From NCBI GenBank assembly GCA_902385255.1, contig CABMEV010000007.1, positions 1 through 45,170 of the forward strand: 45,170 nucleotides of DNA. The letters run 5' to 3'. Below are positions 10,138 through 40,775 of the stretch, one piece after another. The DNA comes from Candidatus Tiddalikarchaeum anstoanum (GTDB taxonomy: Archaea > Nanobdellota > Nanobdellia > Tiddalikarchaeales > Tiddalikarchaeaceae). Position 1 is the first letter of the stretch. Each line of letters starts with the position of its first letter. The notes under the pieces are model-generated. The model was given only the letters and a program-made list of their open reading frames with translations. It was not told where the DNA came from and did not search any database. A program made the position numbers and the translations under genes.

Positions 10138-11775
10138 CTACAGGAAATCCTTATTGCCTATCCCAAGAAGCTTCACTCCGCCGCTGAAACATAATGTCTG
10201 CAGTACGTTGAAACTTGAAGGCTTAGTCCTCGTCGTATTCTTAATTCCCTCAATTATTTTTGAGGCAGTTAAGGGGTCAAGGTATAATTCCGAGACCCTG
10301 GTTCCTAAACTAGTTGCAAAAAAATTATTGCCTTCTTTTTCAACAAAACCCCACCGTTCTAAAGAAGTTACAACGTTTTCTAAAAGTGCATTAATCATTG
10401 AAAGGTTGCCGAATTGTTTTGCATAAAAAGTCCTTGAGAAGAACTTCTTCAAAGAATCATGATTAATAGTTAATCTGTTGGCGATGAGCGCTAATACGTG
10501 GGTTCGAAGCACAGGCTCCACCCCTAGTTTTGAATAAACTTTCTCAACCTCGCCATTAATATACTCCTTGAATAACGCTTCCTTGTCACACTCGCTTTTA
10601 GCTATGAGAATAGCTTCACCATAATCTTCAAGACCAGGCCTCCCGGCTCGTCCTGACATCTGCTTAACTTCTAATACAGGAATATAATAATTGCCCTGGC
10701 TCTGGCTGAAACGCGTCAAGTCCCTGATAACAACCCGAAACGCGGGAAGATTAATCCCTGCCGCTAATGTCGGAGTCGCGCATAACGCTTTGATTAATCT
10801 CTCACGAAAACCAGTCTCGATAACTTCCCTCTGGCTGTTTACCAAACCTGCATGGTGAAACCCGACGCCTAACCTTACAAGCTCAGCCAATTTCCTGCAC
10901 TGCTCAGTCGGCTGCTCTAAAGCATACAATACTTTATCAGCCAAGACATCCAGCTTTTCCCGTTCATTATCATTTAAGAAAGGTGCAACGTACTTAGCCA
11001 GGTTACTGGCCAAACTTTCAGTATTCCTCCTGCTGCCAAGAAAGAATAATACTTGTTTGCTGCGCTTTAAAGTATCATAAGTGATTGAAACTTCATCCCT
11101 CACTTTCTTCTCAATAGTGTAAGACTTCTCCTCAAAATATAAAGTATCATTAAAAAAAACCCCTTCATATAACTTGATAGGCCTGTAATCACTCTTAACC
11201 AAGACTGCACTCAGCCAATCGCTTAACTCTTTGTCATTACTAATAGTTGCGGAGAGCGCCAAGAACTGCGCTTTCGGAAGCATCTCCTTCAGCCGCGTTA
11301 TCAAAATTTCAAGAGTTGGACCTCTCGTTTCATCATCTATTAAGTGAACTTCATCAATTACTACGCACGTTAATCCCCTGATGAAAGGCGCCTCGTGGCG
11401 GATGAGGCTGTCTGCTTTCTCGCAAGTTGTAATTACGATGTCAAACTGCGCAAGGTACGGGTCTTTCTCATCCAAGTCTCCGATGCTTAAAGCGCACCTT
11501 AAACCGTAAGGCTCATATTTTTTTCTCAAATCAGCATATTTCTCATTAGCCAAACTCTTTAACGGGACAATATACAAAGTTTTACCCTTATTCTCAAAAT
11601 GTTTCACTGCCGCCATCTCAGCAACTAAAGTTTTCCCGCTGCTCGTAGGACTGCTTACGACAATATTCTTTCCTTCAAGCACTCCAGCTTTGATGCTTAA
11701 TTCTTGAGGAGGTCTTAGAGCAGTAATCCCTTTTTCTTTTAAAATTTCAGCAATAATGCGAGGCAATTCATTCAT
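10138..11775 (-). CDS. hel308: Hel308-type Ski2 helicase, N-terminal part ending in an in-frame TAG
   Basis: Hel308 is an ATP-dependent 3'-5' DNA helicase acting at stalled replication forks. All motor motifs are intact: Q-like motif LRPPQ, Walker A SSPTSSGKT, DEVH, SATIS, FLGSRRNTE, GVGFHHAG and QMSGRAGRPG, followed by the winged-helix domain. Translation stops after KDFL, between the winged helix and the ratchet domain, at a lone TAG; the remaining C-terminal domains continue in frame at 9673-10125. I chose the ATG at 11775 (MNELPRII), 545 aa, because a TATA box lies about 36 bases upstream; an in-frame start at 11826 is also possible. Without the ratchet domain the helicase would be expected to be impaired. 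Confidence 0.9.
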   Translation of the reverse strand: MNELPRIIAEILKEKGITALRPPQELSIKAGVLEGKNIVVSSPTSSGKTLVAEMAAVKHFENKGKTLYIVPLKSLANEKYADLRKKYEPYGLRCALSIGDLDEKDPYLAQFDIVITTCEKADSLIRHEAPFIRGLTCVVIDEVHLIDDETRGPTLEILITRLKEMLPKAQFLALSATISNDKELSDWLSAVLVKSDYRPIKLYEGVFFNDTLYFEEKSYTIEKKVRDEVSITYDTLKRSKQVLFFLGSRRNTESLASNLAKYVAPFLNDNEREKLDVLADKVLYALEQPTEQCRKLAELVRLGVGFHHAGLVNSQREVIETGFRERLIKALCATPTLAAGINLPAFRVVIRDLTRFSQSQGNYYIPVLEVKQMSGRAGRPGLEDYGEAILIAKSECDKEALFKEYINGEVEKVYSKLGVEPVLRTHVLALIANRLTINHDSLKKFFSRTFYAKQFGNLSMINALLENVVTSLERWGFVEKEGNNFFATSLGTRVSELYLDPLTASKIIEGIKNTTRTKPSSFNVLQTLCFSGGVKLLGIGNKDFL

Positions 11776-34016: not shown

Positions 34017-34679
34017 TTATATAGTTTCGACTATATTTTCAGAATTTTCAAAAATTTTATATATAATATTTTTAAGTTTTCCCTCAATAATCTTAGTTGC
34101 ATCTATAAAATTATCAAGAATCAAACTGTTTAATCCGTTCATTAACTTATTCTTCTTCAGATAATCGTAAAGTTCGAATCTTTTCGCAGTAATGACTGAT
34201 ATTTTTTTAACAGCATTGCCATAATCCTTGAATTCATTAATGATAACTTCTGAAAACATATCGCCATCCGCGCATAATATTAACTTTGACAGGCGAACCT
34301 GGTCATTGAATATTCCGCGTACGTGGTTGAAAACCTCTCCTCCTTCCTTGTTCTCCTTTGTCTCCCATAACATATCATCAAGGCCGCAGTAATACCTAAA
34401 ACAGTCATTGACATCATTTATTGTCCTGTTAGGCAAATCCATCTTGTTTCTGAATGTTTTAACCCCGTTGATTTTAGACATGTATTCAGGAAATGAGAAA
34501 TTTAAATTATAATCTGGCTGCATGCTTCCCGCTTTTACTGAGAGCATTAACTGCATGTTAACCCTTTTAAAAACGCCGCCAACAAAAGGAGTAATGAGAG
34601 GGTTCCTGTTCGTTACCTGCTTGTAAGTTTCGTCTATTACGTTGCCAAACTCGGTTAATAATAAGTTATAACTAATCAT
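34017..34679 (-). CDS. Unknown protein (220 aa) next to the RiPP-like cluster
   Basis: I do not recognise this protein. It is predicted soluble, begins MISYNLLLTEFG and has alternating helices and strands, with FRYYCGLDDMLWETKENKEG in the middle and a long basic helix (about 195-215) at the end. It is divergent from the peptide gene at 34824, separated by a 144-base region that holds the peptide promoter, so a functional link is possible but unproved. Confidence 0.55.
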   Translation of the reverse strand: MISYNLLLTEFGNVIDETYKQVTNRNPLITPFVGGVFKRVNMQLMLSVKAGSMQPDYNLNFSFPEYMSKINGVKTFRNKMDLPNRTINDVNDCFRYYCGLDDMLWETKENKEGGEVFNHVRGIFNDQVRLSKLILCADGDMFSEVIINEFKDYGNAVKKISVITAKRFELYDYLKKNKLMNGLNSLILDNFIDATKIIEGKLKNIIYKIFENSENIVETI

Positions 34680-34792: not shown

Positions 34793-34801
34793 GTTTAAAA
34801 A
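34793..34801 (+). promoter_or_regulatory. TATA box of the RiPP precursor gene
   Basis: GTTTAAAAA, preceded by AATAAA (a possible BRE), lies 23-31 bases before the ATG at 34824. This is the spacing of a strong leaderless archaeal promoter and supports the small gene as real. Confidence 0.6.
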
Positions 34802-34823
34802 CTAGAATAGTATTGCAAAACTT

Positions 34824-35000
34824 ATGGCACAGATGTATGAAACTAGTAGTTTAGAAGAAACTGTCGGGCAGGTTAAAATTAACAAAGAGAAGAATCCTGA
34901 AACGTATAAGTCTCGAAATTTGGCTACTTACGCAAAAAGAGCATTTGTTCTAGATTCAATATATAATCCAGTATCATGTCATTCCTGTAACGGCCCGTAG
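34824..35000 (+). CDS. Candidate RiPP precursor peptide (58 aa) with C-terminal CHSCNGP core
   Basis: The peptide starts MAQMYETSSLEETVGQ, continues with a charged region (INKEKNPETYKS), then ATYAKRAFVLDSIYNPV, and ends SCHSCNGP followed by TAG. The only cysteines are C52 and C55, five and eight codons before the stop, with Ser on both sides and Gly-Pro at the end. A charged leader with a short C-terminal Cys/Ser/Gly core is the usual RiPP layout. It has a well-placed TATA box and lies 48 bases before a radical SAM/SPASM gene in the same direction. Which residues are modified and where it is cut cannot be told. If TAG were read through, ten more codons would follow; I consider it a stop. Confidence 0.72.
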   Translation: MAQMYETSSLEETVGQVKINKEKNPETYKSRNLATYAKRAFVLDSIYNPVSCHSCNGP

Positions 35001-35009
35001 ATACTTAAT

Positions 35010-35018
35010 TTTATAAAG
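35010..35018 (+). promoter_or_regulatory. Possible second TATA box before the radical SAM gene
   Basis: TTTATAAAG lies between the peptide stop and the GTG at 35049, about 31-39 bases upstream. It would let the maturase be made separately from the abundant precursor message. Confidence 0.4.
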
Positions 35019-35048
35019 ACTAATTGTTGAACACATTAGCGAATACTT

Positions 35049-36467
35049 GTGGAAACTGAATCTTATAAGCGGTCTAGTAACGCGACATTAAAAGCGCCAA
35101 TAGGTGTACAAATATTAGTTAATAACATATGCAACCATTCTTGTTTCTACTGTAGTTCTGGCGCGGTACAGCAAGAGGAATCTTCTAACAAATACAGCGC
35201 TATGAGCAATGAAAACGCGTATGAATTTGTTGACATAATATCCAGGGATATCAATCCATATTATGCTGTATGCACCGGCGGCGAGCCTACACTTTCAATG
35301 AAGCCGCTTTCAGCATTAATGATGGGCTTTAAACAAAAAAATATACCCACTCATCTTAATACTAACCTGACGGCAGTTTCAGGCGAGGAGTTTAATGACT
35401 TAATCTTATTATTAAAAAGATGCAATTCTTCAGTGTTAACTTCACTGCCGCATTATGACGGGGCAGTTTACAAAAAAATAACATCTAAAGATGACATAAA
35501 CTTATTCTATAACAACTTAAACAGCCTGATTTCCGAAGACATAAATATTACAGTAAATATGGTTGTGCATAAATTAAACCATAAAGATGTCTATCATACT
35601 GGAAAATTACTGTTTGAAAAATATGGATTGAAAAATTTTGCAGCAACACCATTAGTAGTGTCCTCGAATAATCTTTTTCCTAATAAAAATATCGTCCTCA
35701 AACCTGATGAATTATTTGACGTATTCAGGGATTTGCTGAGATTGAATAGTGATTTAAACATGCAGGTAGACTGTCTTGAAGTAATACCCCGATGTTCCAT
35801 ACCTGAAGATATAAGATACAACGCTTCAGGATTGTTCAAACGCGCATGCAGTGCGGGGAGTTCAACACTCTTAATTGATTACTTAGGATTTATACGCCCA
35901 TGTTCCTTCTTTCCAGAAGTTAATGATGACAAATACAACATATTGAAAACACCATTCAGCGAAATCTGGGAGTATTTGAAGCCTTACCGAGATAATGAGC
36001 ATATAAGTGATGAATGTAAAACTTGTTATGAAATTGAAGACTGCAATGGCGGCTGCCGGGTTTTTGGAGTTGACAAGGATGGATTTACAGGGTCAGATTC
36101 CAGAATAACAGGGCCTATTTTTAAGACTGCAAAAAATGAGATTGAAAAATTATCACCGAATAATATTTATTCCTTTAATAAAGATATGAAATTCAGAAAA
36201 GAACAGCGGGATATTTATACATTCTTTAACGGCCAAATATCCAACAGGTCAAGCATAATATTCGTAACCTACGGTTTTAAACAATTTTGCGAAAATTTCA
36301 TCAAAGAAACACGAAACTACTTCACATTAGACGATGTTGTAAACGCTGCAGGTGTTGAGAATAAGGAAAAAATAACCGAACTAATGAAGTATCTGCTTCA
36401 GAAAAAATACATATACCCTGCAAATAAACATGATTTAACCACTTCCAGCGAGCCTTTGGGGGAATAA
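35049..36467 (+). CDS. Radical SAM/SPASM peptide maturase with C-terminal extension
   Basis: A radical SAM core binds the first [4Fe-4S] through C28, C32 and C35 (CNHSCFYC); the SAM-binding motif GGEP is at 77-80. The SPASM domain is very clear: C267, G280 and C285 (C-x12-G-x4-C) and C323, C326, C332 and C336 (C-x2-C-x5-C-x3-C), which bind one or two auxiliary clusters. SPASM proteins typically modify ribosomal peptides (thioether, C-C or decarboxylative chemistry). Residues about 385-472 add a helical, winged-helix-like tail that might bind the leader peptide, as RRE domains do elsewhere; this is inference. Start is GTG at 35049, 472 aa. The chemistry on the CHSC core is unknown. Confidence 0.9.
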   Translation: METESYKRSSNATLKAPIGVQILVNNICNHSCFYCSSGAVQQEESSNKYSAMSNENAYEFVDIISRDINPYYAVCTGGEPTLSMKPLSALMMGFKQKNIPTHLNTNLTAVSGEEFNDLILLLKRCNSSVLTSLPHYDGAVYKKITSKDDINLFYNNLNSLISEDINITVNMVVHKLNHKDVYHTGKLLFEKYGLKNFAATPLVVSSNNLFPNKNIVLKPDELFDVFRDLLRLNSDLNMQVDCLEVIPRCSIPEDIRYNASGLFKRACSAGSSTLLIDYLGFIRPCSFFPEVNDDKYNILKTPFSEIWEYLKPYRDNEHISDECKTCYEIEDCNGGCRVFGVDKDGFTGSDSRITGPIFKTAKNEIEKLSPNNIYSFNKDMKFRKEQRDIYTFFNGQISNRSSIIFVTYGFKQFCENFIKETRNYFTLDDVVNAAGVENKEKITELMKYLLQKKYIYPANKHDLTTSSEPLGE

Positions 36468-36524
36468 GCAGCACTCCTAGACACAAACTTTAATATATTA
36501 CGTTCTTATTAGTAGGTAATTACC

Positions 36525-37151
36525 ATGTTCATGCAAAAAGATAATTTTTTGATTAAATGCTCGGATGAAGATGAACGACTTATAAATTCAATAAATCTCT
36601 CAAAAATATACAAAGACGTAACCGCTTTCTTCGACTTTAAGAGAAAAATCACTATTAAGATATACTTTTTAGAATCAGTTGACGAGTTTCATTTCTTCTC
36701 AGGCTACAAGTTTGAAAAGTGGATGTGCAGTTATACAGGAATAAAGAATATGATAACACTATTCTCGCCAAGGGCCATTGAAAAATATACAATACACAAA
36801 GCTGATGAAGTGCCTGGTGTGATAACTCACGAGTTAGCGCATATAATTTATGAACAGATGGGTCTTAGGGATATAAGATTATTAAATGACGGCATATCCA
36901 ATTATCTTCAGTTTAAAGACAATAGCAGCAAAAGCAAAGAACACTTTAACCTCTCAAACATCGACTTCTTCTCTGACTCCTTAAACTATTACCAGGACGG
37001 GCCTGTAGTCATAAAAGAAATTATTGAAAAATTCGGCAAAGAAAAATTGTTCGAATTCTTGGAAGAAGCAGTTGATTACCCGAACGAGGAACTAAACGAA
37101 TTGTTTAAAAAATTCTTCGGCGATAAAACAAAAAAGAATACTAAAAAATAA
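36525..37151 (+). CDS. HELAH metallopeptidase, candidate leader protease
   Basis: The 208-aa protein contains PGVITHELAHIIYEQMG with H102-E103-L-A-H106 as zinc ligands and base. The segment LLNDGISNYLQ (120-129) takes the place of the usual gluzincin NEGxAxY third-ligand motif, with Asp122 instead of Glu. No signal peptide, so it acts in the cytoplasm. It lies 57 bases after the radical SAM gene, with its own TATA-like box (TTTAATATA near 36490-36498). It could remove the leader or trim the modified peptide; no substrate is shown. Confidence 0.78.
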   Translation: MFMQKDNFLIKCSDEDERLINSINLSKIYKDVTAFFDFKRKITIKIYFLESVDEFHFFSGYKFEKWMCSYTGIKNMITLFSPRAIEKYTIHKADEVPGVITHELAHIIYEQMGLRDIRLLNDGISNYLQFKDNSSKSKEHFNLSNIDFFSDSLNYYQDGPVVIKEIIEKFGKEKLFEFLEEAVDYPNEELNELFKKFFGDKTKKNTKK

Positions 37152-40382: not shown

Positions 40383-40775
40383 ATGGTTGGCGAAAAAAAA
40401 TTCAATGATTTGAACATGACAATTATACCTTTATTAGAGTCGAAATTGTTAAACGCGGGCTGTAACTTCTTGTACTTGGATTGCCTGAAGCGTCAATACA
40501 TCTTCAAATACGTGGATGAGAAAGGACTAGTCTCTAACGAATTGCTCTTTAAAAACATGAAGAGTTACTATAATAATCTCAAAAGGATTATGCCTAAAAT
40601 AATTGGCGGCTTATTATGCAGGCAGAAAATACATGCCGAATCCCAAAGAATAATGGAATTAGAAAGATATGACACTGATATAAACTGCAGCGGTTATTAT
40701 GATGCAGGCTGTTACGATTGCGAGGGATTCGATAAAAGCTGCGGTTTTTACACTAAGAAACCTGAAATATTCTAA
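40383..40775 (+). CDS. Small Cys-rich protein, unknown
   Basis: The 130-aa protein is basic in its middle and ends with a Cys-rich segment CSGYYDAGCYDCEGFDKSC (about 102-120), with four Cys and several Asp/Tyr; three more Cys lie earlier (C27, C34 and C79). No signal peptide, so a metal-binding site (zinc or Fe-S) is more likely than disulfides. No family recognised. A TATA box upstream supports the start. Confidence 0.65.
   Translation: MVGEKKFNDLNMTIIPLLESKLLNAGCNFLYLDCLKRQYIFKYVDEKGLVSNELLFKNMKSYYNNLKRIMPKIIGGLLCRQKIHAESQRIMELERYDTDINCSGYYDAGCYDCEGFDKSCGFYTKKPEIF

Follow-up and report, generated by a model that had tools for sequence, protein, structure and literature searches.

We identified a gene cassette that probably encodes a peptide natural-product (RiPP) pathway in Candidatus Tiddalikarchaeum anstoanum, in which a radical SAM/SPASM enzyme with an RRE-like domain and a gluzincin-type metallopeptidase would convert a 58-aa precursor into a thioether-type cysteine product. 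The cassette lies in the window, i.e. the whole stretch of 45,170 nucleotides analysed here, which is contig 7 of a 1.16-Mb genome (94% complete). Three ORFs follow one another on the plus strand in the order 58-aa peptide, 472-aa enzyme and 208-aa HELAH metallopeptidase, with a gap of 48 bases between the first two (Table 1). A sequence-only reading had described exactly this arrangement, and the ORF coordinates agree with it. The TATA box that it had placed at leaderless distance was read from the sequence as a TATA-like box (TTTAAAAA), and its spacing to the ATG is of the leaderless type.

Table 1. Features of the cassette in the window (positions as in the window)
Feature	Position	Strand	Basis
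TATA-like box TTTAAAAA	34794..34801	+	read from sequence; centre ~26 nt before peptide ATG
Candidate precursor peptide, 58 aa	34824..35000	+	ATG ORF, ends NPVSCHSCNGP
Presumed core SCHSCNGP	34974..34997	+	match to core grammar of relatives
Radical SAM/SPASM maturase, 472 aa	35049..36467	+	GTG start; Pfam/NCBIfam matches
Radical SAM cluster motif CNHSCFYC (C28, C32, C35)	35130..35153	+	invariant across four closest proteins
SPASM region C267-C336	35847..36056	+	six of seven canonical Cys; last replaced
PqqD/RRE-like C-terminal domain, ~residues 374-460	36168..36428	+	free-standing homologues and hhalign
Second TATA-like stretch TTTAATATATT, 5' of peptidase gene	36489..36499	+	read from sequence
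HExxH metallopeptidase, 208 aa, gluzincin/M1-like	36525..37151	+	ATG ORF
HELAH motif	36828..36842	+	H102, E103, H106 invariant in four homologues

The cassette is surrounded by genes for a rubrerythrin, two NAD-dependent epimerases, a nucleotidyltransferase-like protein and winged-helix proteins. That the window is archaeal is seen from an ADP-dependent phosphofructokinase/glucokinase gene located nearby and from a TATA-binding-protein sequence read in another locus of the same genome (L126). No transporter was found among the cassette neighbours in the window, and no dedicated transporter or immunity gene was seen among the neighbourhoods examined. The peptide ORF is adjoined by a divergent gene of 220 aa (34017-34679, minus strand) that has no match in Pfam or NCBIfam. 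Further downstream, a 130-aa ORF with a C-terminal Cys cluster, CSGYYDAGCYDCEGFDKSCGFY, lies upstream of a P-type ATPase-like gene (40383-40775, plus strand); it has no Pfam match, shows weak similarity over part of its length in two family genomes, and was weighed as a possible second substrate.

The 472-aa enzyme combines the C28-x3-C32-x2-C35 motif with GGEP and a SPASM region, and matches the Radical_SAM model of Pfam (E 3e-12, 47 bits) and the SPASM domain of NCBIfam (33.4 bits against a cut-off of 27). The SPASM domain claimed by the sequence-only reading therefore stands, whereas the "perfect" cysteine pattern does not: C267, C285, C323, C326, C332 and C336 are present, and the seventh canonical Cys (DPxC) is replaced by DSRI. 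This terminal Cys is replaced likewise in the other aligned cassette enzymes and retained in two further SPASM proteins that were aligned with them, including L093b, which adjoins a Cys-rich ORF of its own. According to profile comparison with the PDB, the nearest solved relatives are the peptide maturases CteB, SkfB and PqqE and a sulfatase maturase. A single-sequence search yielded relatives with 25-39% identity, among them relatives at 33-39%; a search for the enzyme in viral contigs found none. An AlphaFold model of the whole enzyme built from two sequences was unusable (pLDDT 51).

Six cassette enzymes (that of the window and five relatives) were scanned individually against the NCBIfam equivalogs. 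None reached its cut-off with the window enzyme, and those matched by the five relatives at E <= 1e-20 all stayed far below theirs, so that no membership in a non-peptide SPASM family, by which the sequence-only reading would have had its proposal judged, came to light. That the enzyme performs haem, MoaA-like or lipid chemistry next to coincidental neighbours is accordingly hard to credit: there are weak scores to the AhbD, NirJ2 and MoaA models, but all of them lie far under the curated cut-offs (e.g. 38 versus 500 bits), and the conserved peptide ORFs, the peptidase and the adjacency test described below speak against it.

The SPASM region is followed by a domain of ~85 residues that the sequence-only reading had missed and that adds to the RiPP case. 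Its homologue is fused to the enzyme in most loci and encoded as a separate small gene in four of them (L085, L086, L093 and L119); in L093, the separate gene overlaps the peptidase gene by 4 bases and is followed by the precursor. Aligned by hhalign with six PqqD-type proteins from the class, the domain gave a match over 70 columns (Prob 85%, P 6e-6), and neither Pfam nor a sequence-profile search of the PDB returned a match. We consider the domain RRE-like with moderate confidence. The AlphaFold model of the domain (pLDDT 68) was devoid of clear strands, and the Foldseek matches of this weak model, although including the RRE proteins PbtF, TigE and MccB, were not significant (all E > 1). Proteusin epimerases are a known case of radical SAM enzymes that carry an RRE at the C-terminus (PMC8326336). 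Small PqqD-type proteins are also encoded at L126 1495-1776 (contig 3 of the window's genome) and L125 1390-1671 (G003), with no radical SAM gene within the 3-kb stretch around each.

In the 208-aa protein and its relatives, HExxH is followed downstream by N-[E/D]-G...Y, and the gluzincin EGxxxY signature is present; with HExxH and a downstream acidic ligand, the protein is predicted to be a metallopeptidase of the MA clan. The third-ligand position is D (NDG) in the window protein versus E (NEG) in most relatives. No Pfam family scored above its cut-off, the weak matches being BSP, M1, DUF2268 and Peptidase_MA, and profile matches in the PDB were M1 aminopeptidases (E 2e-5). Proteases of the M1 and M61 types remove leaders in lanthipeptide systems, where AplP cuts after E-(I/L)-(L/Q) (PMC10885120). 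Some HEXXH proteins of RiPP clusters, formerly annotated as peptidases and occurring together with radical SAM RiPP enzymes, are reported to be alpha-ketoglutarate-dependent hydroxylases (PMC12636437), and the cassette protein might be one of these instead of a peptidase. We regard this as very unlikely, as no such model was matched at E <= 1 in an NCBIfam scan of four homologues, and the M1 aminopeptidase profiles, the weak BSP, M1 and Peptidase_MA matches and the EGxxxY signature argue for a peptidase. At two loci (L079 3306-4076 and L080 6369-7079), an unclassified HExxH protein (HELMH, 236-256 aa) replaces the common peptidase.

A profile search over 378 genomes of the class revealed matches to the enzyme in 53 genomes at E <= 1e-25, among which those scoring more than ~210 bits form a clear upper group, and the phylum-wide search added matches from the same class only. 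The distribution of the cassette is patchy: it occurs in a few per cent of the sampled genomes, yet these represent about ten archaeal families. The tree groups the window enzyme with those of L073, L012 and L076 (support 100/99), and the cassette-bearing enzymes cluster as well, a value as low being reached by 2 of 500 shuffles. The cassette usually includes a homologous HExxH peptidase as well, the co-occurrence that the sequence-only reading had put forward for checking; the peptidase profile match adjoins the enzyme in G000, G003, G021, G124, G078, G292, G300, G107, G040 and G328, and also in L012.

On a side branch (L083, L089 and L118), each enzyme is accompanied by a conserved protein of 340-380 aa that belongs to no Pfam family, and L083 and L089 also carry an ATP-grasp-like protein; a mixed radical SAM/ATP-grasp peptide system is possible for this branch. 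In L084 (3405-6748, G300), the peptidase is joined by two radical SAM/SPASM enzymes that differ from each other and by a precursor with CAWGRCVWGQCNYSRK, a repeated CxWGxC, at its end; this cassette possibly performs a two-step modification. In L093 (3714-4818, G362), the genes for the RRE-like protein, the peptidase and a Cys-rich precursor each overlap by 4 bases, without a radical SAM gene; 5.6 kb away (10251-11551), a second Cys-rich precursor is found with an unrelated SPASM enzyme. In three cassettes of the closest group, long related Cys-rich proteins are encoded within a few kb downstream, namely in L012 (8600-9901), L076 (1235-2656) and L093 (5733-7316); they may be secreted, and their mutual similarity may be compositional.

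The sequence-only reading had made its proposal depend on small ORFs near homologues of the enzyme, and the outcome is in favour of the proposal. Of 20 family loci, 16 have a Cys-rich small ORF adjoining the enzyme or the peptidase, compared with none of 25 control loci, which had the peptidase only or another SPASM enzyme (Fisher 7e-9). The count followed a fixed rule that was drawn up after examples had been seen (ATG start, length 40-95 aa, on the same strand and no more than 350 bp away, three or more Cys in 25 residues). L075 and L093 were counted with the peptidase as anchor, the enzyme gene being on another contig or absent. Examples are the precursors of L076 (...YCIACDRCDVCDVSCNSLPRP), L012 (...NCNATCDNICDDFCNDCAGDAP...), L075 (...NCDCDSCVCDAPSCDSCVCDSSCDSC...), L073 (...LCECHCDCYYECHCDNP...) and L084 (...NCAWGRCVWGQCNYSRK); the precursors matched no family. 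In L012, L075, L076, L078, L082 and L093, the precursor overlaps the adjoining cassette gene by a few bases, and such short overlaps of precursor, peptidase and/or radical SAM genes form a pattern as in translationally coupled operons. Five close relatives have the leader motif [LI]x[KR]AxI[LIFY] in common (0 of 150 shuffles as good). One motif for all 18 precursors was also tried and dropped, the total of 133 standing against a shuffle maximum of 131 with diffuse sites; the motif is clear only in the five closest relatives.

The relatives' peptides contain 3-10 Cys, and the cores follow a grammar in which D/E is favoured after Cys and S/T before it (z ~6). Spacing is mostly CxC and CxxC (22 and 27 cases), which resembles metal sites, so that the small proteins might be unmodified metal or Fe-S binding peptides and the radical SAM enzyme might act on another substrate. 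This is very unlikely in view of the RRE-like domain, be it fused to the enzyme or encoded separately, the overlapping genes and the leader-like N-termini with their common motif; moreover, the Cys of some cores are few or far apart, e.g. in that of L084 mentioned above.

The RiPP reading is at its weakest in the peptide of the window itself. It is the least typical candidate precursor of the set, its identity resting on its position and its two-Cys C-terminus. With only two Cys it falls outside the three-Cys rule applied to the relatives, and the window locus joins those with an adjacent precursor only if two Cys are allowed. The location upstream of the enzyme is atypical, relatives mostly having the precursor after the radical SAM or peptidase gene. 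No homologue was found in four family genomes, the fit of the leader to the relatives' motif is not significant (p ~0.13), and the codon score of -0.004 is lower than that of any of the window's 33 training genes (minimum 0.098) and is reached by 17% of spurious ORFs. A similarity between "SIYNPV" of the window and "SKIYNPI" of L075 had been picked by eye and was discarded, as the motif search did not choose it. Since cassettes can be split, as in L093, the RiPP family could be real and the 58-aa ORF a chance ORF, the true substrate being encoded elsewhere in the genome or lost. We consider this unlikely, if far from negligible. An ATG ORF of at least 58 aa in the 369-bp gap has a probability of 0.009 in Markov-random sequence, and the same length together with a CxxC within the last 10 residues did not occur in 20,000 such trials. 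The TATA-like box stands at leaderless distance, and SCHSCNGP agrees with the grammar S-C-x-S-C-[DN]-G seen in 17 other cores, ranking in the top 3.5% when compared with 115 background ORFs that contain CxxC. No other small ORF of such kind adjoins the enzyme or the peptidase in the window.

The analysis shows the gene content and order, the linkage and conservation of the cassette, the Cys-rich partner ORFs of relatives and an RRE-like domain that is also encoded separately. For the chemistry (bond type), the identity of the substrate and the order of steps, we infer the following course. The 58-aa precursor would consist of a leader of ~50 residues and the short Cys core SCHSCNGP, and the leader would be bound by the RRE-like C-terminal domain of the 472-aa protein. 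The radical SAM/SPASM domain would then abstract an H atom from a core residue, and the Cys sulphur would most likely be joined to a neighbouring residue in a thioether, by analogy with sactipeptides and ranthipeptides. Finally, the HELAH gluzincin would remove the leader, and the product may serve as a signal, an antimicrobial, a metal ligand or a cofactor. We favour the RiPP reading because of the adjacency of Cys-rich ORFs, the gene overlaps, the co-location of the peptidase, the RRE-like module, the leader motif and the core grammar, and also because CteB and SkfB are among the solved enzymes nearest to that of the cassette and leader peptidases of the M1 clan are known (PMC10885120). The pathway proposed by the sequence-only reading is thus supported, with reservations concerning the atypical 58-aa ORF and the six-Cys SPASM region. 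Besides the two Cys, leader fit, missing homologue and poor codon score of the window peptide, the weak structure model of the RRE-like domain and its lack of a Pfam match, D as third peptidase ligand and the lack of a transporter or immunity gene count against the RiPP reading. That the product is a cofactor derived from a peptide, or a metal ligand inside the cell, which only these reduced archaea possess, appears rather doubtful to us; it would explain why no obvious exporter was seen in the neighbourhoods examined, cores with down to two Cys, and the existence of free-standing and fused RRE variants. On this reading, the six-Cys SPASM region may catalyse a bond of a kind so far undescribed.

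According to a bulk prediction by antiSMASH, radical SAM-modified RiPP clusters are spread over DPANN, with 221 biosynthetic clusters in Nanoarchaeota (PMC12144867). That paper describes archaeal RiPP clusters as abundant in prediction and names two lanthipeptides as the only ones validated before; its passages considered here describe no family that combines these genes or yields such a product. Our literature search found no description of this cassette, nor any peptide made by a radical SAM enzyme in an archaeon with a small genome (DPANN-type). The best reading is that the general kind, archaeal or DPANN radical SAM RiPP clusters, is already known (PMC12144867), and that this gene set is new as a RiPP cassette. 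This is in line with the sequence-only reading, which had recognised no known family, and with the equivalog scores below cut-off. The cassette indicates that genes are devoted to peptide modification even where the genome measures only about 1 Mb. About 17 natural precursor/enzyme pairs in a defined small cassette make the question testable, and the fused versus separate recognition domain represents a natural experiment on leader binding.

Among known systems, CteA/CteB (SCIFF ranthipeptides of Clostridia) likewise consist of a short Cys-rich precursor and a dedicated radical SAM/SPASM maturase, and CteB is the top PDB match of the enzyme-family profile (5wgg, E 1.3e-9), followed by SkfB. 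The peptide-binding domain of CteB is N-terminal, whereas that of the archaeal cassette is C-terminal, and an HExxH peptidase is added here; the cores do not have the pattern of six Cys in ~45 residues that defines SCIFF, the window peptide having two Cys. PapA/PapB (freyrasin-type ranthipeptides) resemble the cassette in Cys-rich cores with Asp nearby and in a weak similarity of the enzymes. The score against the PapB model is 40.3 bits, below the cut-off of 340 (NCBIfam NF047865), and CxxxD occurs in some relatives only and not in the window core. The sactipeptide maturases SkfB, AlbA and StsB also unite radical SAM/SPASM and leader-binding domains and act on Cys cores; the StsB model scored 25.9 versus 625 bits, and sactipeptide-like transporter and immunity genes were not seen in the cassette surroundings. 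PQQ (PqqA/D/E) and mycofactocin (MftA/B/C/E) share the small precursor, the PqqD-type binding domain, the SPASM enzyme and the peptidase. Their cores are Glu-Tyr or Val-Tyr, in contrast to the Cys core here, and neither cut-off was reached (PqqE, TIGR02109: 29.5 versus 381 bits; MftC, TIGR03962: 36.1 versus 265 bits). The peptidase fold differs as well, the mycofactocin peptidase MftE being a creatininase homologue (PMC10885120). The M1/M61 leader peptidases of the AplP type from class III/IV lanthipeptides (PMC10885120) also represent gluzincin metallopeptidases in RiPP clusters. The cassette protein, a predicted leader peptidase, is far shorter (~210 aa), and the AplP cleavage motif E-(I/L)-(L/Q) resembles the A-E-I-L/I of the relatives' leader motif.
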